A stretch of 64,000 bases of DNA from Branchiostoma lanceolatum (Eukaryota > Chordata > Leptocardii > Amphioxiformes > Branchiostomatidae): the NCBI RefSeq assembly GCF_035083965.1, contig NC_089739.1:9164001-9228000 (forward strand), written 5' to 3'. Made by a program: the position numbers and the translations under genes. This document shows positions 3,804-30,074 of the stretch, in pieces; the stretch's first letter is position 1, and each line of letters begins with the position of its first letter. The notes beneath the pieces were generated by a model. It did not search any database, was not told the origin of the DNA, and saw only the letters and a list, made by a program, of their open reading frames with translations.

Positions 3804-4607
3804 GTAAGAAATGATACATAGATTGTTAACTGGCAACTGGTTTTTAGCAATCTTACTCTGGATCTTTTGGTGATAGGTACAAATCCCAGTTTACCTGTTG
3901 ATGTTCTGAACCCCAAAATCAATTTTGCTGCTGAAGGTAAAACTCCAAAGGGAATAATAAATAAAGATGCTCCGCAGCCCCTTGACACTTATTTCTAACT
4001 CGATGTTAACCGATTTGCCGAATGACAAACTGTCCGTTGATGTCAATGCTTCTCAATAACGTTAGTTACCGCATGGTGGTTAGTGACATTTTCACCATTG
4101 CCAAAAACTAGAAAAAGCATATATGGCAGACCACAATACTTGTACCAACATGTGTATGTTGATAAACAAATCTTTGTTGTGCCCTGTTCTTAGCTCAGCT
4201 GTGCAAAGACGTGCATGCAATAAAGGTCTTTATTCATTGATTAAACTTTATGTTGCAGAAATCATTCTGTTCCCTTACGGCGAAGAACAGGGGGACAACT
4301 CGCTACCTGATACAGAGGAACACCAAGACATCTCTCTACCGTCCCTGATTGAGATCAGTTTTGGGTTCCCCTTCTTTGGACAGTTCTACTACAGTCTTTA
4401 CGTTAGTTCACATTTCTGTTTTCCATTTGAAAGCACGAAGAAAGATGGATATACATTCCTTTGCTATAACAGTGTGTTAGTATATTATAACTATCATATC
4501 ATCATTGCCAGTTGTTATAGATTTTAAAGGCACAAAGAGCCATCAAAATGTCAAGTGGCTAGATGGAAATATATGTATACATGTAGTTTTAAAAAGTGCC
4601 TCAAGAC

Positions 4608-4791: not shown

Positions 4792-7700
4792 TATATATAT
4801 ATACTGGACATGTAAAATGTATTGATATATACATGTATATTGATATTCATGTTGTAGTTCACCTTTTGTCTATTTACTACAGAAACATTACATGACACAA
4901 CGTTACTTTTTGCTAATGTAAGGGTTGTCACAATTTCACAATTTCTCACTTTCTTTGCAGTTCTCAGATAACGGGCTGATAATATTCCCACCGACGGCGC
5001 AGTCCCGTTCTCGGAGGGAACCGTACCCCAACCCGAGCCCGTTCCGCAGCAGTAACACGGTACCAGCAGGATTCCCTCCCTTGGTCGCAGCATCGTGGGG
5101 TGATGTTGATCTAACATCTGATGTGGGGAAAGTGTGGTATCAGGTAAATGAACAACCCGGTTTTTAACAGTAAATTAGTTAGATTCATTCACATTTGGAA
5201 GGTTCCCTACTCTTTCCGATTAGTGCGGTGGCGTTTTTAACATGCTTGAGGTATGGTTGTCCTCAAAATAACAGGTTTACATCCCATCCGAGGGTAAGTC
5301 CTTAAACAAAATATGTACTCATTTTCACGAGTTGAGTGAGGAAATAGGTGTAAAAAGTGTATGGCCCAAGGCAAGGGCATAACACTGGGGCCTGGTGGGG
5401 TCTAAAAACATTATTAGGAAATCTAGAAGAAAAACTAAATACTATTTTTTGGTGTTTGTATTTATCATGTTGTCAGCACAAAGGCTGATTCTCTCCTCCT
5501 TTTCTTACCAGGTGTATTCTGATGACAACTCTGTTGATGATGTCACACAAGCAATGTTTGACAAGGTCATCGAGAGAATGAACCAGTCTTTCAGCGACAT
5601 CTTCGTGCCAACCTGGGTACTGGTTGTGACCTGGGACAGTGTACCATCTGTGGACGCAACACACACCAAACAGAACGTAAGTTTAGCAATCCAGTATTTT
5701 GCGCAAATTCGAACAAAATACACTTGATAAACATCCCCATTAAACCCACCCCATCATAAAAACCACTATAGAGTCAATAGGGACATTTGTAGTTTGAAAA
5801 GATCTGTCAATTTCATCTTTGACGTCCAAAAAGACTCTGTTCTATGAAGAGTTTTCAAACATCGTAGAATTCTTATAATTGCATGCATGGTGATATTCAA
5901 CTAATAGAATTCAATTTGTACATTCTAAATGTCTAAATATTTTGTTGTCAAGATGCTAGTTCAACGTCATGTTCCGTACTTTTTTTCAGCCAAACACATT
6001 CCAAACCGTCCTGGCCACAGATGGGTCGGACTCCGTTGCTTTCTTCACCTATAAAGAAGATGAGATGTTGTGGACCAACGAAACCCAGAACGTTGTCCTT
6101 GGCTACAACAGTGCTAACGGGGCCATTTTCGAAAACATCCAGCTAGAAAACCCTTACCGACCCGACCAAGTCAGCGGAAACACTGGGCTGAAAGGACGAT
6201 GGGCGTTTCGGTTAGAGAGCGATGCAACAAGGAAAACCAACTACAAGAAGTTGTGCCGTGACTGGTACAATGCAGAGCCAGAGCCTTCTGAGTGGATAGT
6301 TGGAGAAGGCCAGTGTCCTTGCACCCTGCTACAAGCACTGAGGGACCAACGCTTCACTCCTGTTACCCTGTCTCCATTTGAAATCTTCCTCCTTCTTACC
6401 TTCATTGAAGGTGAGGACTTTTTTTTAGATATTCGCTTCTACTTAAGAGGAAAGAATACTTAATTTCTATTAATTACTGTGCATTATGTGTTCAAGACAG
6501 TGGCAGCACATTTTAATGATAACTTGCACTCATTTTATCTCCAGAATTGGAAGTTTGCCTCAGCCCGCTGTTTGCCAGTCCGACTGGTTCAAGTGTAGAC
6601 TGTTGCTACAAGTTCCTGGCCCTGAACACGGAGATACCACTGGCTGGAAGCCATCACAGATATCAAAGATCCTCTCCACTTTACACCCGTAAGTCTAAGC
6701 ATTTGTGTCTACATCTTTCTGTTTTATTTATTCATTTCTGTTGTATTTAGCCAGGATGGCCCAACTCACTGGCATTACCTTTCAGTAGGGCCCTGGAATT
6801 TCAATGGGGATCTTTGTTTATTAAGGGTTTTATCAAATGTATGAAATTAGAAAATATCCAAGACGGCGAAACCTTTGTGCTGAGATAGATTGATAGCATC
6901 ACAGGTTGATTAAAACTATATAGGTAAAGCTCACTGCGCGTGCATCGGGCCTGGGATTAATCAGCGTATACGTGCACACTACGTAGGCATCACATGTTAC
7001 AACTGTCATTAGCAATATTTCCGCAAACTTTGGGGAAATCAAATCATAATGTTTTTACGCCCTGACCTGATTTTCACATTTCTGCTTCTTTTTCGAATTG
7101 ATTCTTTTCAACTGAGTATATCTGAGTTGTCTTTCAGAATTTGACGTGAATCCCAAGTCCTGGTGCTGCAGTCTGTCTGACGATGAGGAATTCTGTAAAC
7201 TGTACTATGAAAAGAGGCCTCCAAACAGCTGTTCTTCCTACGTACCACCACGTCTAGGTATGTTTTTGTAGTGATTCATGAGTTTTAAGATATGGTTTAC
7301 AGACAGCTAATGATTTAACACATGGTGTAATTGCTCTTTGGGTATCAGTACTCGTATCAATTCTTTTCTTGAAAATGTACTAAATGCTGTCATTGTTAAA
7401 TTCTCCATTTTTGTCATTATTTCATATACACTCATCTTAATCTCTGTTCTTGTTTTTGCATGATAATTTTTTCAATAGGAACTTCCCCGAAGACAAGATC
7501 TTGCTGGAATCTAGTTGTTTGCAGTGTTTACGTGGCAATTTCTGTCTTTTTTTCAGGCATAATGTGGGGAGACCCTCACATTAGGACGATAGATGGCCTC
7601 GCTTACACGTTCAATGGGTTGGGAGAATTTAGCCTTGTCAAGACGAACGGGGCAAGTGTTCAGTTCAGGCTGCAGGGCCGTACTGAGAAGGCCATCGGAA

Positions 7701-10700
7701 CACAGGGAGCTGCCGAGGCCACAGTCTTCACGGCATTCGCCTCCAAACAAGAGGACTCCTCTACGGTAAATATAGAATATAGCACAGTACGTATCACCCG
7801 AGGTACCAGCTCGACCGCGGGTATGATCGCCCTCCGGCCTTCGCGTGATACGACCCGCGGGCTGGGACCGAGAGTGATGCAGAATACACCATGTTGCATT
7901 TTATCTTTATGCCATATCTGGGCCGCGAAAACGTTCCATACAGGTGTTCTGGACCGGGAGATAACTTGGATTCTAGGGAATTGTGGACATATCAAACATA
8001 CAGTGGTTAACTTCTTTTCATTAGATAGTTCCTAAATGCACTCTTTTTCAACGTGTGTTTTCATTCAGGTTGAAATGGGCATGAACGAAGACCGGACGAA
8101 CATGACACTAATGGTTGACGGACAGTTCATTAACATCACTGACCTACAGCAGAACGGTAAGACATATGACTTAAAAGTTAAACTGGAAAGCAAAATGGTC
8201 CATTCTGTATTAAGTTGATGAAACCTTCGGGTTTGCTTAGGTCTTTTTTTTATTGCAGTATAGAATTGTGCTGACAAATGGTAACACGAGTTATATACCT
8301 CTGTGGAATATCTAGATTGTTTTGTTAGCTTCTTGGCTAATCTTATGATCTTAATCTTATAATATTATATTAATTCGTTGAGAAAAAAGTAATTGGGACG
8401 CCCTTATCCTGGACCCGGGCGAACTGTATTACCTATCACCTTTCCTGGACCTTTCTGACATCTATGACCCAACTTCCTGTTAGTTTCGCCGACGTGCCTG
8501 GCATTCAAATTCCGACTGCAGAACTTAGTACATACGCCATTGCAAACAAGCAAACACACCAACTGATAATAATACCTCCGATTCCACGGAGGTAACAATG
8601 GATATTCTTGTACTTATTTTCTTATCCAGGTGCGCAGCGTTTTGCCAACGTGACTGTCCAGTACAATTTCAACTCGAACCGAACCAGCGTGGTCGCCTCT
8701 TTCTCTTCGGGAATATCAGTGACCGTCTCGCTCCAGAAACTCATGTTGAATGTACAGTTCGGATCGCCGGATTCTTTCGAGAACACTACCCGAGGTCTCC
8801 TCGGTAGGTTATAAACTTTCTGGTATCTAACATGAAATGATGTCCTTATACGTCATTGAGAATTTACGAGAAAACTACCAACACATCATGTATAGATTCC
8901 TTACAATTTCTGTCAACATTATCAAGTAAGAGTGCACCGTAATTCAATTACCATTTACTACTGTGATTTCTAACAGTTATTGTAGAAAATAACAGACAGA
9001 CTAAAAAATAAAGATCGACAACTTCGAATTCGGTCCAGTAAACCTACTGCAACATGCTATTGCATTTAGCCTTACAAGTTACTGCACAATTCAATCAACG
9101 TAAATCTCAATTGAATGTACGCATTGCAAGCACCTTTCCAGTTAGTTTCGATGAATGATCGGTTCATTCGGTTGTGTTGATCCCGTACTCGTATATCCCT
9201 AGGTGTTTGGAACGACAACATTTTGGACGACTTCACCTATCCTAACGGTACGGTACTGCAGCCTCCAGACGGCAGAAACCTAACAGAGGAAGAAATCTTC
9301 CCTTGGGGGCTATCTTGTAAGTAGCATGGCCATGACATTGATTACGATTACATTTTTCAATGTTTATAAGCAAAGTCTTGATAATTCTCACAGAACTGTA
9401 TACATATCTTAACAAATTGCAACGTGCACTATTTTTATTGCATATGTTTTTTATAGATTTATGTATCATTTGCTGTATTCCATGACACAGGGTTTCTTTT
9501 TACATTTATAAAACAAGAGAGATCTTTGCTCCTTTATGGATTATTTCAGAGGCGATCTAAACGTTTATAGGATATGGTATTTTTGTAGCATGCAGGTGCT
9601 GGACTTTCACATACGACGCCATGCCACATTAGTCGTCTCCTCGACTAAAAATGTTAATACCGCAATTTCCTATCTTTTTGTTTTGTTTGCAGGGCAAATC
9701 AGTCAAGACGGCAGTCTTTTCACCTACACGAATGGACAAGACACAACTACCTTCGCCAAGCCAGACTTCAGGCCAAAGTTTCTGAGCGACCTACAAGCCA
9801 CTGTCTCCGATGAAAAACAAAGCGAGGCTGAAAATCTATGTGGCACAAATGTAGAATGTCTCTTTGACGTTCTCAGCACAAATGACACAGAAGTCGGAGA
9901 ACAAACCAAATCTAGTATTGAGACTTTCGATTCAGATGCAGAGACACTGGGTAAGTTCACGGCACAGTTTCGAAAGACACTATGTATTATTTTTTGTTTT
10001 GTCATTCATATTCTTAACGCGTTTTGATAAACCCTCTATAGATAAACCCATACATATCTACATTTTCACTTTAATCTAGAAGCAAGAAGACGCAAATTCT
10101 ATGTAATAGACATGCTTGTAAACGTTAACGTTAAACATGTCATCTTTTTGTCCTGCACTTGGCTCAGCTGGGGACAAATGTATGATAAAAGTCATAAAGC
10201 ATTCATTCAAAGTGGACTTCTGCAATTTGATACAAGAAAGGGCAGACATCTTTCTTTAGTTATATACTGTAAGACAAGCTTACAACATACACTACCTTAG
10301 AACACGCATAAAACAACGATGGTATATCCTTGAATGGACTGTACCACTTTTTAGTTACTGAAATAACCTTTGCTCTTCTGTTGGCAGCCAACTTCCCACC
10401 TAACATCACGGTCAATGCCACAATCAATGGGGTCGTCGAACAAGAGGTTGAACTACAGGTCATTGCTGTAGACCCTGAGGACAATCCTGTGACGTATTCT
10501 ATCGCCAACATCAGCGCCATTCCTGGGGCAACTATTCATCCTGGTATGAATGTTGTGCAATTTCTGCCATATGTTATTTATCTATCTATCTAAATAGTAT
10601 GTATTCATTTCAACTTCGTCACAGCAGGACAGGGCCAGGGGGAACAGGCAAATGAGGCAATACCTTTCTCTTGCCCTCTGTCCAGATTAAAATATGATAA

Positions 10701-13700
10701 GACAAACCTGAAACAGCATCCGCTGTCTTTCGTTGGCGACTAAACGGAAAAATAGAGTAACCAGGTCAAATTTGTAGAATGATTCAATGGAAGACGATGT
10801 CAAGACTGTGTGCTAATGAGTCAGAGGATACTGTCTGTCTGACTGTTTCCAAGTTTCATGCATTTTTTTGAGTAACTGTCATTTGGCGTGACATGGATGT
10901 CTAACCTTCATCGGCCTATCCTGTTTATCTAGTTACCGGTCTCCTAAGATGGACTCCCAACAACCTTCTGCCGGTACAACTGGAGATTGTTGCCAAAGAC
11001 GACAAAGGTGCATCTTCGTCGACCTACCCGATGGTGAAACTCTGCAACTGTAAAAACGGTGGGATCTGCAACTTCGTCACCGTCGACTTCACTGGAGAAA
11101 TCAACCCTGTTGGGCAGTTTCAGGTTTGTCTGGAAAAACGAGTTGAAACTTCAAGATTCTTGTTGATGATATGAAAGCTGTTTCTTCACTGGCCTTCTAT
11201 TTTAGTATTTAAAAAAAATACATGTTTTAGCTGTTTAACCTTTTGCTACAATTACAGCCGTCCCTTATTTGATAGAATGTGCAATACTGCACATAGATGC
11301 AGGTTTTTATGGTGTTTTGCTGTCAACATTAAATCACATGTAGCATCCAAATCATGTTACCCTCAATATGGCTTGTAGTAATCTTTATCTCACGTATTCA
11401 TGTAAATTACTGATATATATAAATATGTTTGACCACATTCCGTATTTTTCTTCTCGTTGCTTTACCTTTTTTCCTGAACATTGGAACGTTTGTTAAAACT
11501 TAAAACTGTATCTGTAGATGCCCCATGTACATATATATATACTTGATCCAAGTCTGTACTAACAGCGTTGTTAAACAGGTTGTTTCCTGCTCGTGCCCTG
11601 AAGCCTATACGGGAGAATTCTGTGAGGAAGATAAGGATGAATGTGAGGAGGACCCATGTTATCCAGGTGTGATGTGTACAGACAACATTGCACCTGTACC
11701 TGGCTTCTCCTGTGGAGACTGTCCTACTGGTCTTAGTGGAAATGGAGAAAAATGTTTTGGTCAGTTGTGCCCTCATTTTCATTTTCAATGATAACAAACA
11801 TGCGTATGTTATGTCTAGCCTAAAAGTAGAAAGTGTTCGATTATACATAGTAGCTCATGATAAATGAGGCATTCATATCATATGAATACCCATTGTTGTG
11901 TTTGCCATACAGCCATGTCCAATAAAATAACATGAGAACGTAGTGGTCCTGGTAAACCTAGAATAAACTTAAAGTTTACCAATGACTGTCCCTTCAATAA
12001 TAAGGATATCTACATAAATGTAAAAATCGCTGATGTCGTAATGAGTTGTTCGAAATTTGACACATGATCCAACAAGTAAATTCGGGTTTCGTCCTCAAAA
12101 TTTAACTACGTAGACCAGCTGAGTTGCAGAAAATAAGTGGACATGGAGGGGCTCCTGACTTTTCAACTAAAATGTGTTTGCACGTTCCTTCATGATGTTG
12201 TATTTCATTTGGCAGATGTCAACGAGTGCCTCCAAGGCCAGTTATGTGAACAGCCCCATAACTGTGAGAACACCCGAGGTAGCTACACCTGTGGATGCGA
12301 CCCTGGATACACCCTGGACAGCAACGGTCTCAACTGTACTGGTAAGTTCCATCATATTATCACAGTTTGTTATGAGTCATTGGGGGATATGCTCTGACTG
12401 CCATTTTACACATTTTCATAAATTAGGCAAAATGTTGATTCTGATGCTTCAGACAATAGCTTTTTTTGGACAAAATGTTCAGTCTATTTGATCTGATCGG
12501 AGTGGCCTATCAAATATGAAACGTTGAATTAAGCATCATTCATAAAAAATTCATTAACACTTATGTCAAGCTTAATCGTTTGTGTAAGTTTGTTGAATCT
12601 CGCTACTCTAGTCAAGTATACACCCACTGCTACTAGTACTGGAATTCACATGCTTTATTCCCCGTTTCAAGGATTATGCAAATCTTTGAACTCTCACACT
12701 TTAAATCATTTGTAATTTAAAAAAACAACAACTTATGCTATTATCATTTTATTTTGTTTCCAGCTTATATCTACTCCTACACTGTTGTATGACTTTCAAT
12801 ATATGTTAGACCTTTTGAGGTCCATAGCAGTTTGCATTCCAAATCATTGATTTCACTTTAGCTTGTCTGCAACTGATGTTGAATTCTCACTGGAAGCAAT
12901 ACCATATTTCTCTAGATGTAAATGAGTGCGCTGTTGGTGGCACCGCTGATTGTGCAGATTTGGCAACATGCACCAACACTGAGGGCAGCTTCATTTGTAT
13001 TTGTAATACTGGGTACACTGGCAACGGAACGTATTGTGAAGGTGATTAATCCATCTCATACTTTTTATATGAAATATTTTCTGCAAAAGTAATAAGAAGT
13101 TATCCTTTAGATATTCTGTATTATGACTGTATATGTATATATTCTATGTTGTCTTGTATTTCATATGTATTATATGTTGTCGTATTTTATATGTATTCTA
13201 TGTTGTCCTGTACGTTTTTGACATGGGTCTGTTTGTGATTGATTGAAAGAAAGAATTGATAAATATAACGTCATATGAATCACGCCCTAAATGGTTATTT
13301 CTAACGCTCAGGGTGTTGTCACTAATCATCACTTTCTGCATGTCTACAACATTGGAGCAGAACCAAACCAGATATCCAGTCCTCTAAATATCCTATTGCA
13401 CCATTTCGACCTTACACCCTGGTATCTTGCCAAACTGCGGACACACACCTGGACAAGCAAACAAACATTCCAACTGATTAAGATACCTCCGTTTTAATGG
13501 AGGTAATGAGAGGTAAATCACTTGACGTGTTAAAAAAATATAATCTTAAGCTATTTCTGTACACACATACATCATTCATCATCATCATCATCATTGGTCG
13601 GCTGCAGCGCAGGCGACTGTAAGTAGCTTCCAGTTCATTTGTTGCCAGCGAACTTTGCGATCTGCCCTGGTACAAGCAGACCGCTGTCATCACCCAGAAG

Positions 13701-16700
13701 TTGATGTGTGTACTGCAGGTAGGTAGTAGGTTGACGTCCTCACCTGCGTTTCCCATGTTATAGATTCTTAACTCTTCTTTGTCTTAGATATCGATGAATG
13801 TACGCGAAGTGCTTCCTGTGATCGCAATGCAGCATGCGACAACACGGATGGGTCCTTTACATGCACATGCAAAGCTGGTTATGAAGGTGGCGGACGCACT
13901 TGTCAGGGTAAGTTGTATAACCTCGCTGTTACTGTCCTACCTAAGTTGTAGGTCCTTAGACAAGGTTGGCCAAATGAAATGCAGTACCACCTAGACTATG
14001 AGATGCAACCTGGCCTAACATAGTTCAATAGACTAATTGATCCTATCCCCATACCCCACCAATGTTTGTGTCTGATGCTGCAAGAAAACATAATTCTTGG
14101 TCCATCTTAGTTTCTTATCTAGTTTGGGGACATTTCAACAACGAAGTGGAGTTTGATACAATTCCAACGTACCTACATTTCAAATTCTGGTCGTAAAGGG
14201 AAAGGTAAACGTCACATAGCCTTTGAGGCCGTAGAGATAGTGGGTTGTTAGTCCACTGTACGTCTAGGTATGGTATTGGACGGCGGATACCCCGGCCCAT
14301 CCCTCTCCTTCCACCGCCTTTCATGTCCCCAACCGAAGTTATAAGGCACCTGGGTGAAGTGAGGAAAGTCGTATAAAGTGAATTTTCCGAGGACCAAAAC
14401 TCTAGTCAGAAATGCCAGGAATCGAACCAATGACCTCTTGCTTTTATGTGCGCTAGTTTAACCACTCGATGCTATTTTTCGTTATTATCTTTAACCAATC
14501 ATCTCTGTTTTCTTCATGTTCTCGCATTGCAGACAAAAATGAGTGTGTGGACCCGGGCATCTGCCACACACATGCAGAATGTACCAACTCCGTCGGCTCC
14601 TACAGCTGTAGCTGCAATCTAGGGTACCGCGGCGACGGGACAGTCTGCACCAATGTGGATGAGTGTGATGAACTATTAGACATCTGTGCTCCTGGTCTGG
14701 GGATCTGTACAGATAATACTGGGTCCTATAGCTGTGCATGTAGGGTTGGATATGTGGGAGATGGGATCAATTGTGAAGGTTTGTTACGATTTTAGAATTC
14801 TAAACATGTTCTTGAAAATATACCTAGAGTGTGAAAAAAGCACAAAAACAATGGCACACTGCATACAAGTGATATATCTGCATATGATAAATGATACTGC
14901 CAGTTGAATGTAGCTTCCTGGTTTTGAGGTTGAGACTTGTCTGTAAACAGGTTACCATTAGTTGCTAACAGCGTTTGAAATGTGCAACCTAGGAAGCTCG
15001 AAGTAACAGTTACCATCTGTTGGTACAGAAAATACGTTTTTGTTTAAAACTAGTCTTCATATTATCTCTTCCATAAGGTATTTACATCCACATAAAGCGA
15101 GTGTTGTTGTTAAATGGAGAATACCTAGGTAGACCATCCGATGGTGATTAATACATGATCCTTTTATACGTGATATTGTGATCTTTATATTATCTGATGA
15201 TGACTTTTCAGATCTTGATGAGTGCTCAGATGATGATCTGAACAGCTGCACTGAGAACGCCGACTGCACCAATACGGAGGGCTCTTACATCTGCCTGTGT
15301 GCAGAGGGGTACGAAGGGGACGGTACAATGAGTTGCACAGGTACGTTAATCCCAAATTCTACTGGACGGTACTTCATAAATTGAATTTGTGTAACCCTTA
15401 ATTTCATTATAGGAATATCATGTAAAATGTATGACTGAAAAGACAACAAAACGCACAAAGCGTTTTGACTATGAAATTCATTAAGGTATCTGTGAAATGG
15501 TAGGTCGCAGTGCGATCGCAACGAAGTCGCCACCCAAGTGGAATAAGACTGACAGATAATAACTGGGAGTTCAAGGGAGGTTTCACCCTTTTGTCAATTT
15601 TTTTGAGCACGGAGACCATTACTTGAGATATAAGTGTTGTGTCCATTCTACCATGCATTTCCATAACATCAACGTTACTTTCTCTCAACTGTCCCATACA
15701 GACGTAGACGAGTGTGCAAGGAATATAAGTAACTGCGCACAGGAGGCAGCCTGCACCAACACTCCGGGGTCTTACCTCTGTTCGTGTAACGATGGATTCG
15801 CCGGAAATGGGATTCAGTGTGAAGGTAACCATTTAACATTTCTCCTCACAGATGAAACAAGGAAGGGTCTGAACAATACATTTCAGCTATATTCTAGAAA
15901 GCAATATAGTTCTATCAATTATCACATATCACTATCTTCACACAGGATTTTGATAAAAAAATACATTGTATCTTAAAATAAATCACCCATGAATCAACAC
16001 CTGCCGTTCTGTACAATATTTCTGTAAGTATGCACATTGCAAATCAAACGTTAATCAATCTGTATACTTTTTGGCTGATTAATCAACGATTACATCGCGT
16101 TGCTGTAGACATTGATGAATGTGTGAGGGGAGAAGATGACTGTGACGATGACACAAAAGCCGTCTGCACCAACCTGATTGGAGGATACAACTGCGCATGC
16201 TTCAATGGTTACCAAGGAGACGGGAGGAGCTGCACAGGTAGGGGCACATTGAAATCTGATTTGAAAGTGTTTCTCATCTTCCAAAATAGTAGATTATTCT
16301 TCAACTACATCCTACCAAGGAGCTCTTTAGTACAACGCAAACTCTTTTTGGCTTTCAAAGTAGCCAATAAACCAGCTAAGGAACGAAGCAGTTTAACCAC
16401 ACAGGGTCTGACTGATTTTAGGACAAAAAGTGGGGAAATGCAAAATTAGATGTTAACATCAGTACCATATCCTCCACAGATATTAACGAGTGCATGACTG
16501 ACAATGGCCAATGCTCTCACAGCTGCTCCAACGCCGCGGGAAGTTATACATGTGGATGTGATAGTGGATACAGGCTAGCAGTCAATGGTTTCCAGTGTGA
16601 TGGTGAAAGACATTCTTTTTGTACTTCTTAATCAGAATACATTCTTTTTGTACTTCTTACTCAGTCTTTAACTGACAAATACATAGATCAATGGCTACCA

Positions 16701-19700
16701 AAGTGGTCTTGACAAGTTAGTGTTAGTTACTGTATTAACTGCAATATGACGATATCTACCGCTCGGGTATAACGTACAGGTTTTGTTACAATGTTTCGCA
16801 TATGTTGATATTTGGCATGAAGACTAATCATATCAGATACTCTTATTCATCACCATAGAAATTGCACCTTTTGTAAAGTGAATTACAAGCCTGAAGATAA
16901 AACCCAACTTTTTGATTTGATTATGGTTGGACCGAATGAATGTTAGCAATGAAGATATCGTGGTCGCAAATAAACGCGACAAGGAAAGGGCAATATAGCA
17001 AGTTACAGCTTTCGTTATGTCAGCTTTCTTTGATTGCAAGTATTCAGCAAGTTGACAAGTCTGATCCAGCTCAACGTATCTCTGTAGATATTGACGAATG
17101 TGCAGAACAGTTGGACGACTGTGAACAAGTCTGCTCCAACACAGAAGGTGGATTCAACTGCACCTGTGCTCCTGGATTCACTCAGGTTGGGGACTCGTGC
17201 CAAGGTGATGACCATTTCCGTAGAGAGTTTCGTCAAGATGTTTAAAAAGTTGGTTAGATCCTTAGATGCTGGTGCTGGATCATATACATGTAATTGTGAT
17301 CATTAGTATTCTCTGGATTTTGTTTGGTTATTGTTAAGTTCATTTTCAACAAGTGTGCTTGGTTTCAGGTAACAATAGTCCTGTGGCACTCACTTGGATT
17401 AACGTTGAAAGCAGTTTCCAGATTCTACACACAACGTTTTATTATCCAAATAGTGAAGAGATGATCAAAGACCCTCAGTGCTTTGAGCAAACAGGCAAAC
17501 AGAAAAGGAAAATCTATTTCGCTTCGAGCTCTCTGATGTCGTCGGTTTTTTCCATATCATGTAACGTCACTACAAATTACATTTTCAGCTTCTGAAAACT
17601 GCTCTAGCACCACCTGCATAAATGCGGAGTGCTTTGTGGAGGTGGATGCGGAGAACAGAACCGAGAAGTGCCTGTGCTTATCTGGCTACGACGTCGTCAA
17701 CGATACAGTTTGCGATGGTAAGCTGGGTAGTAGACAAGATGTTCAGTACCAAGGACGGACGGAGTATGCCAACAGGGGTTGTGTAGAAAAATAATTATAG
17801 CAATAGTTGTGTTTCATATTTTACGTAAAACAAACAAAAAAGTCGCTTATCTAGCAAGTATCAGGTGCATAAGGGTACTGTTTAGACCAATGTTTCTAGA
17901 TTTTACATCCAAACTTTGTGAAACGTAAAATTCTTTTGATGATGGTAAGTTTGGATCGATTTTTTTGCTGCTGTTGTTTCTATGCTACGTAGGCTGAATA
18001 ATCATGGTATAGATCTGATGCAGATACTTAAACAAAATGTAATGCTTTTGTTTTAGATATCGACGAATGTTCAGATGACACACTGAATGCCTGTGACCAG
18101 TTGTGCAACAACACAGCCGGCGGATATACGTGTAACTGCAGAAGAGGTTACATGATCGGTACCGATGGTCGCACATGCACTGGTAAGACATCTTTCTTAA
18201 GACACATTCCCGAATATACAACTGACAACAACACATATTTTGATTTTGTATTTGATTTTTCTATATGTAAGTGCCTGCAATGTTGCTCGTAAGCCGGACG
18301 TCCAATTTGTGAGGAGAACCAAACTTTGAGTAGGTTAAAAAGTCCACCACAAGAATCGAAAAGAGTAGGGGTCCTTCTCAGTGTGAGTGGATCAAATCTT
18401 ACAGTCCGGCCTTACGCAGATTCTACATACTGTACAATACGAGTGTGTTATGCATAAAAGGCGGTTAACTGGTTGTAGGAAAGATTTCACTACGTTGCTA
18501 TGTGTTTTTCTTTGTAGTACCACATGAATTATCCCATTTTCGTGTGTCTCTACCCAAACTGCCATTACGACAGTTAAAAAAACATTCTTTTTGACACTTG
18601 ACAGATATAAATGAGTGTGCAGACAATGACCTACATGACTGTGACTCCAACGCCTTCTGCAACAACAACCAGGGTGGATTCACCTGCAGCTGTAGGCAGG
18701 GCTATACGGGGAACGGCACATTCTGTGAAGGTACGTAAACCGTTATGTTACCATTGCAACAGCTATTAGGTATCACACAGTCGGTACAGGGAAACGATGA
18801 AAGGCAATGTTGCAGACTAGGGTGATCACACACGTGGGCGACATGGCTTTGTACATCTTCCACCAGTACAGTTTCTATATTGTACTGGGCCAACTTTCTT
18901 GAATACAACGTGAAAGTCATGCAACTACTTAGTGTAAGATGCGCAATATCTGGTCATTAACCTTCTAAAGTTAAGTTGTAGAACGTAGCCGTTGGGAAAA
19001 GCTTTACACATTTACGAAAAACAAATAAAGACAGAAATATGACAAAAAGAACAAATAGAATAGAATAGAATACACTTTCTGACCAAAGCTTGAGGATATA
19101 GAAGAAAGCATTTCGTTGATTGTTTAAATGTTAGTCTTTATCGGTTGTTGAAGCTACATGTTATACGTTCTTAATGACTGTCCTAACAGACTATGATGAG
19201 TGCACGTTTGGCAGTCGGACCCAGAACTGCAGTGGCAGCGCGCAGTGTGTCAACACTGATGGGGGCTTCAACTGCACCTGCCGCGACGGGTTTATCGGCG
19301 ACGGCTTCTTCTGTGCAGGTAAAGTAGTCTCTCTTTCTTTGGCTGATTTTTCTTTCGTTGTTAAGATTTTCATCCTGGATCAAACTTGAGCTACCCAAAT
19401 TAACGTCACAGAAGGAGTGGATTGCTTGTTTTTAATGACAAAGCCTGGAGGTAATCAGTCGAAAATTTGGGTAAGTCTAATTTTTGTATTGGAAATTACA
19501 GTTCAACATTGATCCAGAATGACATCCGCAAACACAAATGAAATTTCAAGATATTTGTTTTTTGTACTTAAAACTTGAGTGTTAACCTGGCGCAACCATC
19601 TATGTAACAGATGTTTCAAGAGTAATTCATAAGTTTAAAAAAAATCTCTGAAACAAAAATGACTCGAAACTGTATAACCGATCTTGAATTATTGAATAAT

Positions 19701-22700
19701 CCGTGTTTGACTAAAGAAGCCTCCGTGTAAAATGCAAACAAAATGAGATGGATTTCAGACATTATTAAAGGACGTTTTGTTGTCTTCAGATGTCGATGAG
19801 TGCACTGATGGTTCGCAAAAGTGCCACGAACAAGCAACATGTACCAATGTCGTGGGCAGCTTCAACTGTTCCTGCAATGCCGGATACAACGGGACGGGAA
19901 CTATCTGTGAAGGTAGGATTAGGGGAACATTTTTGATTGGATTTTACACTGACATTGTTTATAATCACTTTGTACGTCAAACACATATGGCATTTTTTTC
20001 AAAAGATTAAACTAGCAATGACACATCTCCGTGTTCGCATCTTGTCCAACTCCATTGCTATACATCAATCGACTATAAGACTATGTCAGAAAATACTGTT
20101 ACTATCCACTTGATGCTGTGATTGAACTTCTAACAACGCAATACTTTCTCGCGTCAGACATCAACGAATGTGAAAACGGAATGAGTCCGTGCGATGGGAA
20201 CGCAACTTGCGCCAACAATGCTGGTTCCTTCACCTGCAAATGCAAGGATGGATACACGGGGTCAGGAAGAGCATGTACAGGTAAGCAGTCCTCAACGTTC
20301 TCACAACTTGTTAAAGTTACTACTTTGAAGACGTACACTTGAATCAAAAGTACGTTCGTGATGCATACACAGACATTGATCATTTACTCTTAAAACATAA
20401 GATCAATCTAACTAATGGTTTTATTAAACGGCAAAATGCGGGTTGAATGCTATAAATATATGAGAACTTGTCTGATGTTATTTTTAGCTTTATTGCTTTT
20501 TATCACTGCAAGACAGTTATCCATGTAGATTATTTCACTTCACGATTCGATTGATTAGTGTCTCCTTATGAAGCTACTTGTCACGCTGTCTAAGGTTTAC
20601 AATGTTCAAACAGTGGAGGTTATTGTGTCAATGTCCACGTATGTGAAATGCTAAGTGTTTAAACAAACTACATGTGTTGTACTTTGATGTTTTCAGATGT
20701 GAACGAGTGTTTAAGTGGCCAAGCTGACTGTCATGAACAGGCATCATGCAGAAACACGGAGGGCCACTATGTGTGCACCTGCAATGCTGGCTTCACAGGC
20801 AACGGGACGTACTGCGAAGGTCAGTAGGATCAAGGAGCACCAAATGGAACACAGGCGTACAGGAATAAACGTTTTATGTGAAACAGAGCCTTATTGTATA
20901 TTTAATAACTATTACATTTTGTTATATGCATTTGTTTTTCATCAATGCAATTTTTTTGCTATCAAAATCTTCTGAACATACCTTCTCATCTCACCTATCC
21001 CCAAGCTCTGAAATCTACGTATTACATGATGTGGTAGTTGGTAGACAGCAACGTAATCAATGCATTTTGCCTAGTACTCACTGCAACATCAACCATACAT
21101 CTTTATATTGTATTATATTATAGTATATGCATTCAAAATGACATTATCCTTACCATCGATCGCTAAAATGCCAAGGAATAAACATTTTACCACTCCCAGT
21201 CAAAGATTCTAGATCGAAAGATCAGTAAATCATCATGTATGAAAATAAAGTGACAGGAGAATACTGTGACGGATCAGCACAAAACCATCGATAACACTGA
21301 TTCTAACGAAGTCGTTCACTATTTTTCAGATGAAGATGAGTGTGCAGAAGGCTCAGACACTTGCACAAACGGTTCTGTGTGTACAAACACCGTGGGTTCC
21401 TTCACTTGTCCCTGTAAGCCTGGTTACATCGGAAGTAACTGTGTCGATGTCCGTGAGTGTGAGGAGGACATTGACAACTGTGACGACAACGCAAACTGTA
21501 CGAACACTCCAGGTTCATTTGTCTGCACCTGTCAGTCTGGTTTCGTCGGAAATGGAACAGTCTGTACAGGTGAGAAAGGTTTTCAATATTTGATACATCG
21601 TGAAAGTTTCAAAATTGTGTGAACTAATCATTTTTGTTCATTTCATTTCAACTTTAATTCAGGGACCTGGCCCATATCATACAACATACAAAGGAGAAAG
21701 ACTACATAAAAAATACAATACAATATAACTTATACAAATGATACGATTAGCATATCTTTATCCTATTTGCATTCCCTACAAATCTGTAGGTGCACATTTT
21801 AATGTCACTAGATAAATATTCTTCAGTTATTACCATTAAGAATAAAAGTAAGTGGTATGAAAATGTTTAACTTTAACAACTATCAATTCATTTTGCTAAA
21901 AAATCCCCGAAACTACGTTCTGATGGCTAGCCAACATGATAGTTTTGTGTTTAGATTATATAGCCGATCTGCTGAGTACATGTTTTTTCAACAGACATCA
22001 ACGAATGTGAAAACGGAATGAGTCAGTGCGATGGGAATGCAACTTGCACCAACAACGCTGGGTCCTACACCTGCACGTGTAACGATGGATACATGGGCTC
22101 AGGAATGACATGTACAGGTAAGCAGTCTTTACATCAGTCATGATGTGACATATTTTGTTAAAGTCACTGACGAAAGACAGCGGATGCTATCTGACACGTC
22201 TGACTGTTTCCAAATTTTATCCAGTTGCTTGAGTAACTATTTTTTGGCCAGTCTTTACATCAGTCTCAACTCTATTGCGTGCCAGTTGTAACAGGTGCAA
22301 TGTATGCCAACTTGTACATGCATGACTATTGAACTATTGATATTACCTAACAATTCTGAAGAAGAACTATTCTAATGGATGAATACCAGTAGAGGCAATT
22401 TAGATATGCATGCTAGTACTCTAGAACAGTATGTTTATAACAGTATGTTGCGTCATGAATATATAGCATTGTCTCGTTTTTGCATAGAGCTATAAGCTTG
22501 ATATCTATGTTTTTTTTAGAGAATTCTGAATTATATCAAGTCTCTTACCAACATAGTCATTGAGGATCTATGCAAATAAACATAATAGTGATGACTTTGC
22601 TTACCATTTTTTAGACGAAGACGAGTGCGCAAACAACAATGACAACTGTGACGACAACGCGAACTGTACGAACACCATCGGTTCCTTCACCTGCAACTGT

Positions 22701-25700
22701 CACTCTGGTTACAGAGGAAATGGTGAAGTCTGCACGGGTGAGAAAGGTTTTCAATATTTAATACATCATTGGCCGGGGAAGACAATCCTCACATCACTTT
22801 CAAATCATAACTCTGATTCTTTTGTTGTTATGTAGGCTTGATATCATCGGCTTACAGAAGATTCTAAAGTCTGTTACAGACATAGTCATTGGTGATTTAT
22901 GCAAATGAACATGCCAGTAATACTGACGACTCTGTTTATCATTCTTCAGACGAAGATGAGTGCGCAAATAGCGTTGCCAACTGTGATGATAACGCTGACT
23001 GTACAAACACCCCCGGTTCCTTCATCTGCACTTGTCAGTCTGGTTACAGAGGAAATGGTGAAGTCTGTACAGGTGAAAAAAGTTTTCTATATTTGATACA
23101 TCATGAATTTTTAAAAGCTCTATGAACAATTGATACGATTTACATTCAACTGTAAACCTGTAGGGGCACATTGTTATGACACTGTGAATAAATTGTTCTT
23201 CGTTTATTTCCATTGAGAATAAAAGGTGCGTATTGTGAAAATGTATAGCTCCAACAACTATCAATTCATTTTCTGAAGAATCCCCCGAAACCATGTCCTT
23301 GCGGCTTATCAATGATATAACAGGATAAGGAGTGTTTAAATGACTGATTACGTGATTTTCTCATCAGACATCAACGAATGTGAAAATGGAATGAGTCAGT
23401 GCGATGTGAATGCAACGTGCACCAACAATGCTGGCTCGTACACCTGTACGTGTAATGGTGGATACACGGGGACAGGAAGAACATGTACAGGTAAGCAGTC
23501 TTTACATCTCTCTCACATTATAAATCTGATTCTTTTGTTGTATGTTTGATATCTATTCTGCTGTTATGTCCTATGTTGATTTCTATTGAATTATTGCATT
23601 GACTACAGCAGCAACCACAGTTAACAGCACGGCAGCTCCGACGACACCAACTCCAGTGACTGCTACTCCTGGGCCACGTGAGTCCATATTCATATACATA
23701 TACTACATATACATGTCCGCTATCATCTTTTTAATGTGAAATTCGTATTTGGTGGGGTTGGTGCATTAACTCGTTGGTGCATTAACTATCATATTATGCA
23801 TATAATGGTTAATGCACTCGTTACATGAACTCAATGTCTTCTGTTGGGGAATTTGCAGTGGCACATGAAAAACACATGACAGATCATACCAATTGATGCT
23901 ATTTGTTTTACACAACGGATGTTTGAGTTTTGGTATTTTACAGCAAAACCTCGGAAGTTTGTACCAGCACAAATAACGATGGACATAGATTTCAATGACG
24001 AATACAACGACAGGACGTCAACAAAGTACATCGAACTATCATCACAGTTGAAAACATCGGTGAGTATACCTAAATACTTTCTACCTTGTTTGTGTGTCCA
24101 GCATATCATCCCACGTGCCACTAACTCTTAGTCTATATTCATTTAAAAGTTCATCTGCATCGGTAGAAGTCATTCCGGATCAAAGTTAAACTAATTTGCC
24201 AAAATAAAAATGGACGTGCCAAGATTGTCGACTGATCAGCTGCAGTCTTTGTCAAGTCTATATTGTATTCTCTCAATCTGTAGTCTGTAAGCATTGGTCC
24301 ATCTCTTGAGATGACAACAGTGCTCTAATTTGAATAACCATGGGCGTCGACTGTCGACTCTGAAGTCCGATCTTTGAATGGCACTCGCGGACAACATTCG
24401 ATGCATTCAAAAATTGTGAATGGAAATATGTTTAAAATCAATAACGTTTATCTATTTTTAAATTCATCTCCTCTAGCTCTCGGTCGTCTATTTTGGAATT
24501 CAAGGGTTCATCGAGATCATCATCATACGATTCTTGTAAGTACAGACAACATAAACACACAATTTCGAAAATCATATCCAGTTGCTTGAGTAACTGCTAT
24601 TTGACGTATCTTATTACCTGGATGTCTAACCTCCATCGACGTGCACTGAAATATACCTCTGGGTATTCTGTCATTGCAGATGTAATGCCAGTGGTATAAA
24701 TGGAAGATGTAATGCAAATGACTCAGGGTATAAAACTTTGAATTCATACCGCTGGGCATTTCTGATCTCTAAGCTTTACCTAGTACCAACGTTTTGACCA
24801 ATTACCACTATTCTAGCACAGCTTTACTGTTACTTGGATTTCTACTATATTAAGTCACAACTATGTCATTAAATGTTGTTGACCATTAGCCCAGGCAGTG
24901 TTAAAGCCAATTTCGCAGCTGTATTCACCGTGGAGGGTTCTGCACCTGATGTCAGCATCCAGCAGGTAGCGAAGGCTAACCTCCAGGAGGCAATTGACAA
25001 TGGGACGTTTGACCCCACACTTCAGGTTACCAACAGTGATAGCCTTCAGGCGGTCACACTCACTGACGAGGGTAGGTGTCATTGAAAAACTTGTTCGAAG
25101 CACACAACAGTATGTGATCGCCCTAGTGATTGTTAATTTGTTGTAAATAGGAGTCATGTGCTTTCGTCGTCTGATTGAACTTGACCTCATTGTTATCAGG
25201 GATTGGGTGGCCAAACTGTTTGTGTGTGTGTTTGTGTATGTGTGTACGTGCTTGCGTGTATGTATGCGTGTGTGTGTTTGTGTAATGCGTGTGTGTGTAT
25301 GTGTGTGTGCCTGTGTGTGTGTTATCGTGTGCGTTATCGTGTGTGTTTCTTTGTGTGTTTGTGTGTTCGCCATCTTGCGTTCACTTATGTTTTGGTTTCC
25401 ATTAAACTCTGCTCACTATTCTGCACTATACATCGTCAGAGTCGCTTTCTCTTTTTCTTATTGTCAGCTATAGTATATATGTATCATTATTTTTTGACTT
25501 GAGGAACTGCAAACTCTTTATAGACCGCGTTGAGGTAAAGAAACTGACGTAGAAATTGTCCGGTCAGAGACACAACAAAGAGATATGATGTTGTTCAATC
25601 TGTTGCAGAGTTGGATCAAGTGTTTGAGGAGTTCTGCAATTTGCCGTGTGGGGAGGGGGCCGTGTGCACACGGGGTGAGCCGTATCCTGGGGCCATCGTG

Positions 25701-28201
25701 GCGGAATGCCAGTGCGAGGAGAACTACTGCAACACGGGGACATGTGCGTTTAGCGTCCAAGAGGAGCGACCAATATGCACGTAAGCGTCAAAATTATATC
25801 TAGTTTTACGTCCTCTCCTTGATAAGAGATGATAATCAACATAATCGTCTACAAAGCCGTTTTCGTCAAGTAAATATTTTAAGTCAATATTCAACTGAGT
25901 CAAACTTTAACAAGGTGAATTAAAGTGTTAGAAATACTAGTGCTCAATGTTTTACATACGTAAATACCATTTTAATTCAGACTCTATCTTCTAGAGTCTG
26001 CGATCGTGGTATGTCGAATAAGGATTTCAAAGAATTTTCAACTGATCCTAGAAAGTCAGTTTGGTCGAAAATCAATGACTTTTACATTGTGTTGTGCCGT
26101 GCTTCGTCGAGTTGTGTTATGAGAGACAGAGAGTTTAAGATTTGACCATTGACTGCCTCTTGCCCCATGTACAGCTGCCCAGCAGAGCAGGGCTCCTGGT
26201 ACAGCGGGGAACGCTGTCAGATCAGTTTGACCCTAGCGCACGTGATCGGTATTGCAGCAGGCTGTGTGGGCGCGGTGTTAGTGATCATCCTTTTCGTGGT
26301 TGTATGTATGGCCAAAAGGTCCAGGCGTACGGCAAAGAAAGGAATGAGGTAACGTTAGCTTTGGTTTCCCATGACAGACATTTTACTTGAAACATTGGCA
26401 TGTAAGGGATGTGAATTGTATGTGCAATTCTTATGTTTTTTTATTCATTTAAACAACAAAGTACAGCCGTAACAAAAACAGAAACAATTACAATGCAGTG
26501 GTGCCTTACCCCTTACAGTATGTTATTAGTAGTATTTTGTTTTCGCTGAAGAATATTGATAAAAGCCATTGTCATTGCAGCGAAGATGAAAACGAAAATT
26601 TCTGATCAAAACTACTTATTCATACCTATTTTCCTACCTGCAGCTAACAATCTGGCATTATTTATAATCAGGATTTATATACATTCACGTTTACGTTTCG
26701 TCATCTGTCACCTTCCTCAAGAAAATATTGACCGGTACTATTCCGTTTGGGGCTGCATTGTTAGCAGCGACACCTAGCTGCAGTGTGGAATAGTACCAGT
26801 CAGTGTTGATCCAAAGAAGGTGATAGACGGTCAACGAAACGTCGGATGTTGATTGTACATAGATACTGGTTGTGAATAAAAAAGATGTGTTATCCAACGA
26901 TCTGAAACCTTTTGGTTATTGGGTTTACATAAAACGTGAAAATACTGTTGTAGGTACAGGGTTCATTCACCAGGAGTCACCCTGGAGAACTTCTACGCTA
27001 CCTCAGAGACCTGGCAACCCCTGGGTGGTCTCCCGGTCACTGATCTGGATGAAGACCTTCCACCTGTGGTAAACGAACATTTTCATGCCTCATCGAGCTG
27101 TAATCTAACGTTGCAGACAGCTATTTTCTAAACTCTAGTTCTATGGTGTGTAGAGTGCAACAAACATTACGTACGGACTATAACCTAACACATAGCTTTA
27201 TACATATAAAACTTGATTTGCCGTTTCCCTAGCAGTCAATTTGGCTTCCGTTCTTCTTGATGTTTGAACGTTGAAAATTCGGACTTAAATTGTCTTCTGT
27301 TGTTGTTGTCATTTGAGATTGACGGTGTTAACAGCTATAAAATGCAACATTGATAAACCACGACTTAAATGATTCATCTAAATGTTCTATAAATTTGTTG
27401 TTTGAAGAAGGCAAACATCGTTCGGCGTTTTTTTTCAAAGGACAATGTTCAAATTTTGAAACTGAACATTTGTCGATTATCCCGAATTTTCATATTTAGG
27501 ATTGATGATAACAATTGATGTTTTTCTTAGCCTGTAGATGCAGATGTATTACCACCTATATACACGGACTCCTTAAGAGCTAGGGGAAGATCTTTCTGGA
27601 ACCCCAGTGTTGAGAACGTGCCATCCGGAGAGGTAGGTTACTTTCAGCTCAAGTAGGGCTATTTTGGCGGTCCGACACCAAACTAGCTAAGCAATCGCCG
27701 GGAGATAAACGTTTAGATAAAGATGTCTTGCTTCCTATTCCTCTGTACTTATGATAACTTCATTTTCTAATTCTTCATACATTTTCCAACTATTGTTATC
27801 TTTTTTTCATGGTCTAATTGGTACAAGTACAGTAGCTGAAAGGCATACGTCATTCCATGCTTTATCATATGCCTATAAACTGTATGTAACAAGAAAGATG
27901 AAGGTACAATTTTGTTTTTTTCGCTCTTGGTATCACTCTCTGACTACTGCATTTTTTATTCAGTTTAAGATTCCTCGCCCATCTGTGAGGGATCCGGTTC
28001 CTCCTAAAGACGACAAAAGTGACAAGTTTGTCCAGGTGGGTTTCATCTTTTGACACTGCGTTGTCGATAAGTGACATTCTTCTTTTGTTTCCAAAACTAA
28101 CTTTGTTTCTTTTTTTAACACTTGTTACATCTATGTTGTTTTATAACAATTCTAAACTATGGTTCTTTCGTTTTTTAAAGACGTTTGAGTTCAAGTTCTG
28201 A
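2..28201 (+). CDS. Large EGF/NIDO/AMOP/VWD/SEA mucin-like membrane protein (5' end outside window)
   Basis: One spliced gene, 53 exons traced: 2-95, 597-713, 1230-1340, 1958-2071, 2651-2767, 3260-3373, 3672-3803, 4259-4401, 4961-5143, 5512-5676, 5990-6410, 6545-6688, 7138-7257, 7557-7765, 8069-8156, 8630-8803, 9203-9316, 9693-9950, 10388-10543, 10933-11123, 11579-11759, 12216-12341, 12916-13041, 13788-13907, 14533-14778, 15212-15340, 15702-15824, 16109-16237, 16480-16602, 17088-17204, 17589-17717, 18057-18182, 18605-18730, 19190-19318, 19790-19912, 20158-20280, 20697-20819, 21330-21569, 21995-22117, 22615-22737, 22950-23072, 23368-23490, 23609-23677, 23944-24059, 24477-24535, 24890-25071, 25609-25780, 26175-26348, 26467-26517, 26954-27068, 27531-27632, 27964-28035, 28181-28201. 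All junction phases match and the total is a multiple of three, giving 2442 residues plus stop. NIDO-AMOP-VWD is the MUC4 and invertebrate mucin-like core. The SEA domain and long EGF array make the architecture unusual. Likely a cell-surface glycoprotein; function is inferred. The small exon 26467-26517 and the weak SEA exon 24477-24535 are the least certain. Confidence 0.88.
148..269. repeat. Foldback (MITE-like) element in the first intron
   Basis: Left arm 148-202 pairs with right arm 211-269 with few mismatches (CCGCTGGCTCAATCTTTT against its complement). A related copy is at 35104-35210. Confidence 0.75.
973..1028. repeat. Perfect 22-bp stem hairpin
   Basis: TTAGATGGATAAAATGGCAC plus AG at 973-994 is the exact complement of 1007-1028, with a 12-base loop. 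Located in an intron. Confidence 0.9.
1385..1529. repeat. Inverted repeat, probable Penelope-related terminus
   Basis: Arms 1385-1416 and 1499-1529 (TTGGACTTACCGAAATTTTC and its complement) enclose a GTGGATTGCTTGACAAAG segment that also occurs near 19420 and, inverted, near 24225. Confidence 0.6.
4259..6250 (+). CDS. NIDO domain exons of the mucin-like gene
   Basis: Exons 4259-4401, 4961-5143, 5512-5676 and the first part of 5990-6410 encode an extracellular NIDO (nidogen N-terminal-like) domain. Visible family hallmarks are FPYGEEQGD at the start, then [17 protein letters not shown], the PFWxDVDL-type segment read here as [11 protein letters not shown], the [13 protein letters not shown] strand with the phase-0 intron inside it, and the closing GYNSANG and [12 protein letters not shown] motifs. 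Intron phases inside the domain are 0-0-0, unlike the phase-1 EGF exons around it. NIDO followed directly by AMOP and VWD is the arrangement of MUC4 and its invertebrate relatives. Confidence 0.88.
4610..4673. repeat. (TA)n microsatellite
   Basis: Nearly uninterrupted TA for 64 bases inside the NIDO intron. Confidence 0.95.
4731..4792. repeat. (CT)n microsatellite
   Basis: About 30 CT units with one interruption, followed by a short TA run. Confidence 0.95.
6251..7257 (+). CDS. AMOP domain exons of the mucin-like gene
   Basis: The 3' part of exon 5990-6410 plus exons 6545-6688 and 7138-7257 encode an AMOP (adhesion-associated) domain. It starts with [10 protein letters not shown] and a CPCTLLQAL segment, continues with a CCYKFLAL cysteine pair, and ends with [20 protein letters not shown]. 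The paired cysteines and the Trp/Tyr spacing are typical of AMOP. The domain sits between NIDO and VWD exactly as in MUC4, SUSD2-like and Mesh-like proteins. Confidence 0.85.
7557..9950 (+). CDS. von Willebrand type D domain exons with GDPH motif
   Basis: Exons 7557-7765, 8069-8156, 8630-8803, 9203-9316 and 9693-9950 encode a VWD domain and its C-terminal extension. It opens with [19 protein letters not shown]; the GDPH tetrapeptide is at 7568-7579. The chain proceeds through GEFSLVK, a beta-rich middle and the TRGLLGVWN closing motif typical of VWD. In MUC4 the GDPH is a known autocatalytic cleavage site, so proteolytic processing here is plausible but inferred. The last exon adds an acidic region with two cysteines that ends in a phase-1 junction. 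Confidence 0.88.
7786..7885. repeat. GC-rich imperfect palindrome in a VWD intron
   Basis: GTATCACCCGAGGTACCAGC with CGACCGCGGGT pairs imperfectly with ACCCGCGGGCTGGGACCGAG and AGTGATGC. Probably a small foldback insertion. Confidence 0.5.
10388..11759 (+). CDS. Cadherin-like segment and two EGFs after VWD
   Basis: Exons 10388-10543 and 10933-11123 encode a beta-sandwich-like segment beginning [15 protein letters not shown]. It contains [13 protein letters not shown] and TGLLRWTPN, which resemble dystroglycan-type cadherin-like repeats (DxxDxxxxY then G-L-x-W-x-P). The chain then runs into [10 protein letters not shown], the start of an EGF whose second half ([12 protein letters not shown]) lies in exon 11579-11759; a second EGF (DECEEDPC onward) completes that exon. 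The 11760 donor is GTCAGT, slightly off consensus. The cadherin-like assignment rests on pattern only. Confidence 0.75.
12216..23490 (+). CDS. Calcium-binding EGF array (21 exons, 23 domains)
   Basis: Twenty-one consecutive exons, all flanked by phase-1 introns, encode fibrillin-like EGF domains that mostly begin D(V/I)(D/N)EC or DEDEC. Most carry CxNTxGSFxCxC cores; the Asn/Asp in that core is the usual beta-hydroxylation position. Exons 14533-14778 and 21330-21569 each encode two domains. Exon 17589-17717 is divergent: it lacks the Asp-x-Asp/Asn-Glu calcium motif and is probably a non-calcium EGF. Exons 20158, 21995 and 23368 are near-copies of each other, as are 22615, 22950 and the second domain of 21330, showing recent tandem duplication. 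Confidence 0.9.
14220..14460 (-). repeat. tRNA-derived SINE, family A, copy 1
   Basis: Intronic. An inverted B box (GGAATCGAACCAATG) near 14420 and the family-A body (GGTATTGGACGGCGGATACC, CACCTGGGTGAAGTGAGGAA) identify it. Confidence 0.7.
18290..18480 (+). repeat. SINE family B tail copy
   Basis: Shares CGAAAAGAGTAGGGGTCC, GTGTGAGTGGATCAAA and AAAAGGCGGT with 50838-51190, but the tRNA-like head is lost. Intronic. Confidence 0.6.
22153..22247 (+). repeat. Dispersed repeat D (GAAACGTCTGACTG / GTTGCTTGAGTAACT family)
   Basis: Shares GCGGATGCTATCTGACACG, GTCTGACTGTTTCCAAATTT and TATCCAGTTGCTTGAGTAAC with copies at 10694-10915, 24574-24645 and 43178-43262 (plus), and 41503-41540 and 62886-63034 (minus). 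Probably the 3' tail of a retroelement. Confidence 0.7.
23609..25071 (+). CDS. Thr/Pro linker and SEA domain exons
   Basis: Exon 23609-23677 encodes a 23-residue Ala/Thr/Pro linker (candidate O-glycosylated stalk). Exons 23944-24059, 24477-24535 and 24890-25071 encode a SEA domain of about 119 residues. After a [11 protein letters not shown] first strand come an ELSSQLKTS helix and a [15 protein letters not shown] hairpin. This matches the FRPGSVVV hairpin of MUC1-type SEA domains, where autoproteolysis occurs between Gly and Ser (here 24896/24897). The second helix ([15 protein letters not shown]) and last strand ([10 protein letters not shown]) are also present. The intron before 24890 splits the Phe codon just ahead of the cleavage hairpin. 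Confidence 0.8.
25210..25370. repeat. Imperfect (TG)n microsatellite
   Basis: About 160 bases of TG repeats with many substitutions, in the intron after the SEA domain. Confidence 0.9.
25609..28201 (+). CDS. Juxtamembrane EGF, transmembrane helix and cytoplasmic tail exons
   Basis: Exon 25609-25780 and the start of 26175-26348 encode a cysteine-rich EGF-like segment. A hydrophobic helix follows at 26242-26307 ([12 protein letters not shown] then [10 protein letters not shown]) with a basic stop-transfer run, KRSRRTAKK. The tail is spread over 26467-26517, 26954-27068, 27531-27632, 27964-28035 and 28181-28201. It contains tyrosines in NNYNAVVPY and ENFYATSE, a PPIY motif (27552-27563; PPxY, WW-domain ligand consensus) and ends EFKF, a Phe-x-Phe C-terminus fitting a class II PDZ ligand. 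The motifs are consensus matches only. Type I membrane topology is well supported. Confidence 0.82.
26694..26896. mobile_element. Inverted repeat plus GAAACGTC tail, Penelope-like terminus
   Basis: Arms 26694-26743 and 26787-26842 are imperfect complements (CGGTACTATTCC against GGAATAGTACC). They are followed by CGAAACGTCGGATGTTGATTG and GTGAATAAAAAAGATG, a type of 3' end often seen next to Penelope-like copies. Confidence 0.5.
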
Positions 28202-30055: not shown

Positions 30056-30074
30056 TTCAACTATGTAGGCACAG

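Follow-up and report, generated by a model that had tools for sequence, protein, structure and literature searches.

To our knowledge, the SEA- and EGF-bearing membrane mucins MUC3, MUC12 and MUC17 carry no NIDO-AMOP-VWD domains. Among membrane-bound mucins, these domains belong to MUC4 alone (PMC5354666). In vertebrates, a membrane mucin is either of a SEA type or the SEA-less MUC4; the predicted amphioxus gene described here combines both. Sea-anemone mucin4-like proteins (from Actinia tenebrosa and others) have an additional C-terminal SEA domain, and a SEA-bearing MUC4 ancestor from which SEA was later lost had been proposed by Zaretsky and Wreschner in 2013 (as reported in PMC9080433). 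In the excerpts of the literature examined, PMC9080433 is the only source reporting NIDO, AMOP, VWD and SEA in one protein; the part of PMC11788884 consulted names AMOP once, for SUSD2, and that of PMC10381214 deals with echinoderm nidogens and with SEA in syndecans, not with the NIDO-AMOP-VWD-SEA combination. Among the papers listed by our literature search, no title or abstract opening names this architecture in amphioxus.

Gene model and domain order

We analyzed a window of 64,000 nucleotides from Branchiostoma lanceolatum (NC_089739.1, positions 9,164,001 to 9,228,000). Open exons with splice sites were combined with a three-frame reading and joined, which gave a chain of 51 exons on the plus strand (2-28201) encoding 2384 aa. 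The list of open exons contains the single best exon for every acceptor in each frame (from 142 candidates). Because phase was one of the criteria by which exons were picked visually, the agreement in phase is no independent evidence, while the domain scores are. All 50 introns of the chain are GT-AG, and the chain contains a single stop, at its very end, as compared to 69 and 184 stops in the other two frames. Upstream, the chain reaches position 2, which is inside an EGF module, and the protein start (the 5' end of the gene), together with any signal peptide, therefore lies beyond the window edge. Downstream of the stop at 28201, a zinc-finger array reminiscent of amphioxus proteins neighbours the gene (29171-30169).

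As seen in Table 1, the order of domains is EGFs, NIDO, AMOP, VWD, MUC4-type C8-3, 24 EGFs, a stretch rich in S/T/P, SEA, a cysteine-rich EGF region, the transmembrane segment and the tail. Five Pfam domains pass the curated cut-offs (NIDO, AMOP, VWD, C8-3_MUC4 and SEA; see Table 1 for E-values). NIDO, AMOP and VWD are in MUC4-family order, and the AMOP match is partial (profile positions 3-80 of 143). Matches below the cut-off (RGM_C, DUF7658, JAG1-like_EGF2 and HIG_1_N) and overlapping matches were not used. The first-pass annotation had read a phase-consistent exon chain from 7557 to 25071, with NIDO-AMOP-VWD and SEA in one continuous gene model; the exons do join in consistent phase, and a profile search for the four domains found all of them within the 51-exon chain. 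It had also set this pairing against vertebrates, in which the two are alternative juxtamembrane modules; as a novelty the pairing does not stand, having been published for sea-anemone MUC4-like proteins (PMC9080433).

The VWD match covers query residues 395-566. There are no cysteines in the 196 aa of VWD, as is also the case for VWD of human and chicken MUC4 (PMC1552070), and the domain is followed by a MUC4-type C8-3 domain (PF23263). Both motifs proposed earlier as cleavage sites were found exactly in place: GDPH, a candidate Asp-Pro autocleavage site (7568-7579, plus strand; residue 397 of the query, inside the VWD match), and PGSV (24891-24902, plus strand; residue 85 of the query, inside the SEA match at 39-124). 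The former aligns with GDPH of FCGBP VWD domains (PDB; the whole-sequence value of 1e-11 is summed over several single domains, each weak). We rejected the idea that GDPH or PGSV is a chance find, because both are inside independently scored domains. A second GSV, at residue 1795, belongs to an EGF module and was not considered further. Viral contigs gave two pattern matches to the translation of 5990-6409 (NIDO/AMOP), neither confirmed by tblastn, and a megablast search of a phage collection using 7400-8035 (the first VWD exon plus flanks) gave no match.

Table 1. Features of the 51-exon chain, with positions in the window
Feature	Positions	Strand	Basis and remarks
Seven EGF exons 5' of NIDO	2-95, 597-713, 1230-1340, 1958-2071, 2651-2767, 3260-3373, 3672-3803	+	Pfam EGF 1.5e-41; first exon cut by window edge
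NIDO exons	4259-4401, 4961-5143, 5512-5676, 5990-6410 (last one also starts AMOP)	+	Pfam NIDO 1.5e-29
AMOP exons	5990-6410 (3' part), 6545-6688, 7138-7257	+	Pfam AMOP 1.5e-7
VWD exons	7557-7765, 8069-8156, 8630-8803, 9203-9316	+	Pfam VWD 6.6e-15; PDB matches to FCGBP and gel-forming mucins (sums of single-domain matches, each weak)
Post-VWD region: MUC4-type C8-3 and start of array EGF 1	9693-9950, 10388-10543, 10933-11123	+	Pfam C8-3_MUC4 2.8e-13
Remainder of 24-EGF array (21 exons)	11579..23490	+	21 EGF_CA stretches
Short S/T/P-rich linker (24 aa, 62.5% S/T/P)	23609..23677	+	
SEA exons	23944-24059, 24477-24535, 24890-25071	+	Pfam SEA 1.7e-10; weak ADGRF1 SEA alignment
Juxtamembrane 10-cysteine EGF region	25609..26217 (cysteines 25635-26217)	+	Last part TGF-alpha-like
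Exon with last EGF loop, transmembrane segment, then basic residues	26175..26348	+	Hydropathy
Cytoplasmic tail exons	26954-27068, 27531-27632, 27964-28035, 28181-28201	+	Ends in TGA

EGF array and S/T/P content

A long EGF array is present between VWD and SEA, where about 25 modules had been estimated; our count is 24. Exon 10933-11123 contains the start of the first module, and the part of the array from 11579 onwards has 141 cysteines (3 + 23 x 6). Pfam reports 21 separate EGF_CA stretches in the array (3e-170), and 20 out of 21 array exons are of symmetric phase 1-1. Among 26 EGF exons, the six closest pairs share 76-88% identity (pairwise, over the shorter exon), and all six pairs are found among exons 20158, 21330, 21995, 22615, 22950 and 23368, which adjoin SEA. 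DNA repeats matching these six exons extend into the introns. The rod has been lengthened by late tandem duplication.

The description of the protein as mucin-like is not supported within the window: no long PTS domain was found in the 2384 aa (the richest 100-residue stretch has 36 S/T/P), and the linker of Table 1 is the sole S/T/P segment. A PTS domain could be encoded upstream of the window.

Juxtamembrane EGF region

We compared the 10-cysteine region with PDB sequences, and all five matches (E up to 10; best 9.8e-5) are ErbB ligands (two TGF-alpha sequences, epigen, and two betacellulin sequences). Two controls, for which the threshold was different (E up to 1), returned no ErbB ligands, with none among the best 60 of 73 matches of an array EGF and none among the 31 matches of the EGF stretch after VWD. 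The spacings of the ten cysteines are 3-5-13-1-4-4-10-1-12. The last six cysteines (4-4-10-1-12) have an extra cysteine two residues before them, and the middle part alone fits an ErbB ligand. In ErbB ligands the first-loop spacing is 7, and their six-cysteine spacing (7-4/5-10-1-8, the values after the first being those of the aligned TGF-alpha) is not found in the juxtamembrane EGF region. Because its cysteine spacing departs from that of a regular ErbB ligand, the region appears to have a likeness to ErbB ligands, not membership among them.

A phase 2 intron (25781-26174) interrupts the region, and the resulting junction (25780/26175) lies between Cys 2223 and Cys 2225, which are C4 and C5 in the TGF-alpha alignment. 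A splice site between C4 and C5 in the membrane-near EGF is the ErbB-ligand criterion proposed by Stein and Staros, who reported such a splice site also in mucins 3, 4, 12 and 17 (PMC1618406). The transmembrane segment gives the 19-residue hydropathy maximum (3.09, residue 2250); only two further stretches exceed 1.6, with values of 1.75 and 1.76.

Alternative explanations

The gene model is a prediction from genomic sequence. Two neighbouring genes, one MUC4-like and the other coding for an EGF-SEA membrane protein, could have been read as a single gene, or the assembly could contain a false join. We scanned the 23 introns between the two halves (11124 to 23943) for two kinds of candidate, namely last exons encoding a transmembrane segment and first exons whose start is hydrophobic. 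On the forward strand there is one weak candidate of each kind (a last exon from 18202 and a first exon at 11354-11401), versus three last exons and no first exon on the opposite strand. With three last-exon candidates on the opposite strand, the single forward one is background, and one first-exon candidate against none says little. There are 13 AATAAA in the forward introns, a count that has no control. On the other side, the introns concerned are just 118-850 bp long, and the chain is uninterrupted by any stop or second transmembrane segment. We rejected a gene boundary within these introns based on the candidate counts; a hidden one is unlikely, and the reading as two genes or as a false join of the assembly is very improbable. 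A single gene across both halves is likely.

Such a gene may still encode a protein in which SEA and/or VWD are not cut, both having a structural role in an adhesion rod that stays uncut. The SEA domain is near the membrane and, according to the sequence alignment, has G-S at the predicted cleavage turn, but its motif is GSVKA instead of GSVVV, and the alignment of GSVKA with GSIVA of the ADGRF1 SEA domain (PDB) is weak, with E 1.3 overall and 6.5 for the best of its single stretches. A motif is also no proof of cleavage: tagged MUC16 constructs were not cleaved at the predicted SEA sites (PMC4456727). Against an uncut rod, GDPH and GSV are both intact at their canonical positions, GSVVV or GSIVA is the motif for autocleavage in the beta2-beta3 loop of the SEA domains of the adhesion GPCRs ADGRF1 and ADGRF5 (PMC6954182), and MUC4 undergoes cleavage at GDPH (PMC10880436). 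Of the double processing put forward in the first-pass annotation, the occupation of both canonical cleavage positions is supported, and the processing itself is not; we regard an uncut rod as rather unlikely. As for origin, the SEA-EGF-transmembrane end might have been fused to a NIDO-AMOP-VWD gene separately in the amphioxus lineage by exon shuffling, and not kept from an ancestor common with the anemone MUC4-like proteins. Symmetric phase 1-1 EGF exons (the kind that makes up nearly the whole array) shuffle easily. However, C-terminal SEA domains are found on MUC4-like proteins in several sea anemones, and a SEA-bearing MUC4 ancestor has already been proposed (Zaretsky and Wreschner 2013, via PMC9080433), which makes a separate fusion possible but doubtful. 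The explanation we prefer, i.e., a single MUC4-family gene for a type I membrane protein with both cleavages and force release of rod and head, is somewhat probable when taken as a whole.

Proposed working and implications

According to this preferred explanation, and given the predicted splicing, a rod of 24 EGF modules, most of them of the calcium-binding type, would hold the NIDO-AMOP-VWD-C8-3 head away from the cell, and the membrane end would consist of SEA followed by the ErbB-ligand-like EGF region, the transmembrane segment and the tail. During maturation, VWD would be autocleaved at GDPH and SEA between G and S, and the cleaved pieces would remain together non-covalently. SEA fragments remain associated after cleavage, and their separation is likely to occur by force (PMC6954182, PMC9578598). 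For cut VWD domains that lack the disulfide, dissociation is possible in principle (PMC10880436). The cysteine-free VWD alters what double cleavage would mean: because of it, the GDPH halves, if cut, would lack a disulfide tether, and the three-piece complex would be non-covalently held. A three-piece surface complex with non-covalent contacts at both joints is possible. Force or unfolding at SEA would then release the rod and head, leaving on the cell an EGF-transmembrane stub that might signal.

A further reading, which we consider unlikely, is that this is a bilaterian MUC4-family protein which has retained the ancestral SEA domain and functions as a force-releasable growth-factor precursor. 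SEA self-cleavage would provide a joint that gives way directly above the membrane-anchored, TGF-alpha-like EGF, loss of the long rod and head would uncover a juxtacrine ErbB ligand, and MUC4 and MUC3/12/17 would descend from such a composite, having lost SEA and NIDO-AMOP-VWD, respectively. With SEA, a MUC4 head and an ErbB-ligand-type EGF with its intron in one gene, the proposal of SEA loss in MUC4 becomes testable outside cnidarians (by domain trees and intron positions). In addition, candidate sites for two types of autocleavage chemistry (Asp-Pro for VWD, Gly-Ser for SEA) occur in one chain, so that both could be compared while folding conditions are kept identical.

Comparison with known systems

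Like the ErbB ligands TGF-alpha, epigen and betacellulin, the juxtamembrane EGF region has a C-x4-C-x10-C-x-C core (and CxFxVQE..PxCxC as in TGF-alpha), the C4/C5 intron and a position near the membrane; unlike them, it has ten cysteines, with altered first and last loops. The gene shares with vertebrate MUC4 the NIDO-AMOP-VWD domains, C8-3_MUC4, the cysteine-free VWD with GDPH, and an EGF adjoining the transmembrane segment (PMC1552070). In contrast, MUC4 has no SEA domain (PMC9080433), which the gene here has, and VWD of MUC4 is followed by EGF1-EGF2-TM (PMC1552070), as compared to 24 EGFs and SEA in the amphioxus gene, with no PTS domain within the window. The sea-anemone mucin4-like proteins are alike in having NIDO, AMOP, VWD and an extra C-terminal SEA domain in one transmembrane protein; they differ in being cnidarian transcriptome models, for which the excerpts of PMC9080433 make no mention of a long EGF array or an ErbB-ligand-type EGF. 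The pairing of MUC4 domains with SEA is known, and the most useful additions of the present analysis are the absence of cysteines from VWD and the intron-split juxtamembrane EGF that resembles ErbB ligands.

Putative neighboring genes and repeats

Downstream of the MUC4-like gene, on the minus strand, two open frames encode repeats rich in S/T/P, a hydrophobic segment and then lysines (see the table); a Pfam search with these two frames returned no matches. These frames, together with the CUB pieces, may represent another mucin-like membrane gene.

Putative protein-coding features neighboring the MUC4-like gene
Feature	Position	Strand	Pfam
C2H2 zinc-finger array, within a 332-aa open frame	29171-30169	minus	
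Leucine-rich repeat protein, hydrophobic start	32525-33454	minus	
Open frames carrying 36-bp repeats rich in S/T/P, plus a hydrophobic segment with lysines after it	39672-40679	minus	
CUB pieces	43291-44684		1 of 2 above cut-off

Within the MUC4-like gene itself, the EGF exons adjoining the SEA end of the array (20146-23537) are tandemly duplicated at a higher order, including the flanking intron sequence (repeats D2, D3 and D8), and pairs of these exons share 76-88% identity. The cytoplasmic tail contains PPIY (27552-27563), which by motif we take to be a possible WW-domain ligand.

An 81-bp dispersed repeat is found in two copies (93% identical), one inside an intron of the MUC4-like gene (22163-22243) and the other close to the CUB pieces (43181-43261). 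Two inverted repeats, 43608-43949 (arms of 118 nt, 96% complementary) and 58703-58874 (70 nt, 93%), are perhaps small mobile elements. The zinc-finger array is presumably of the style found in amphioxus.
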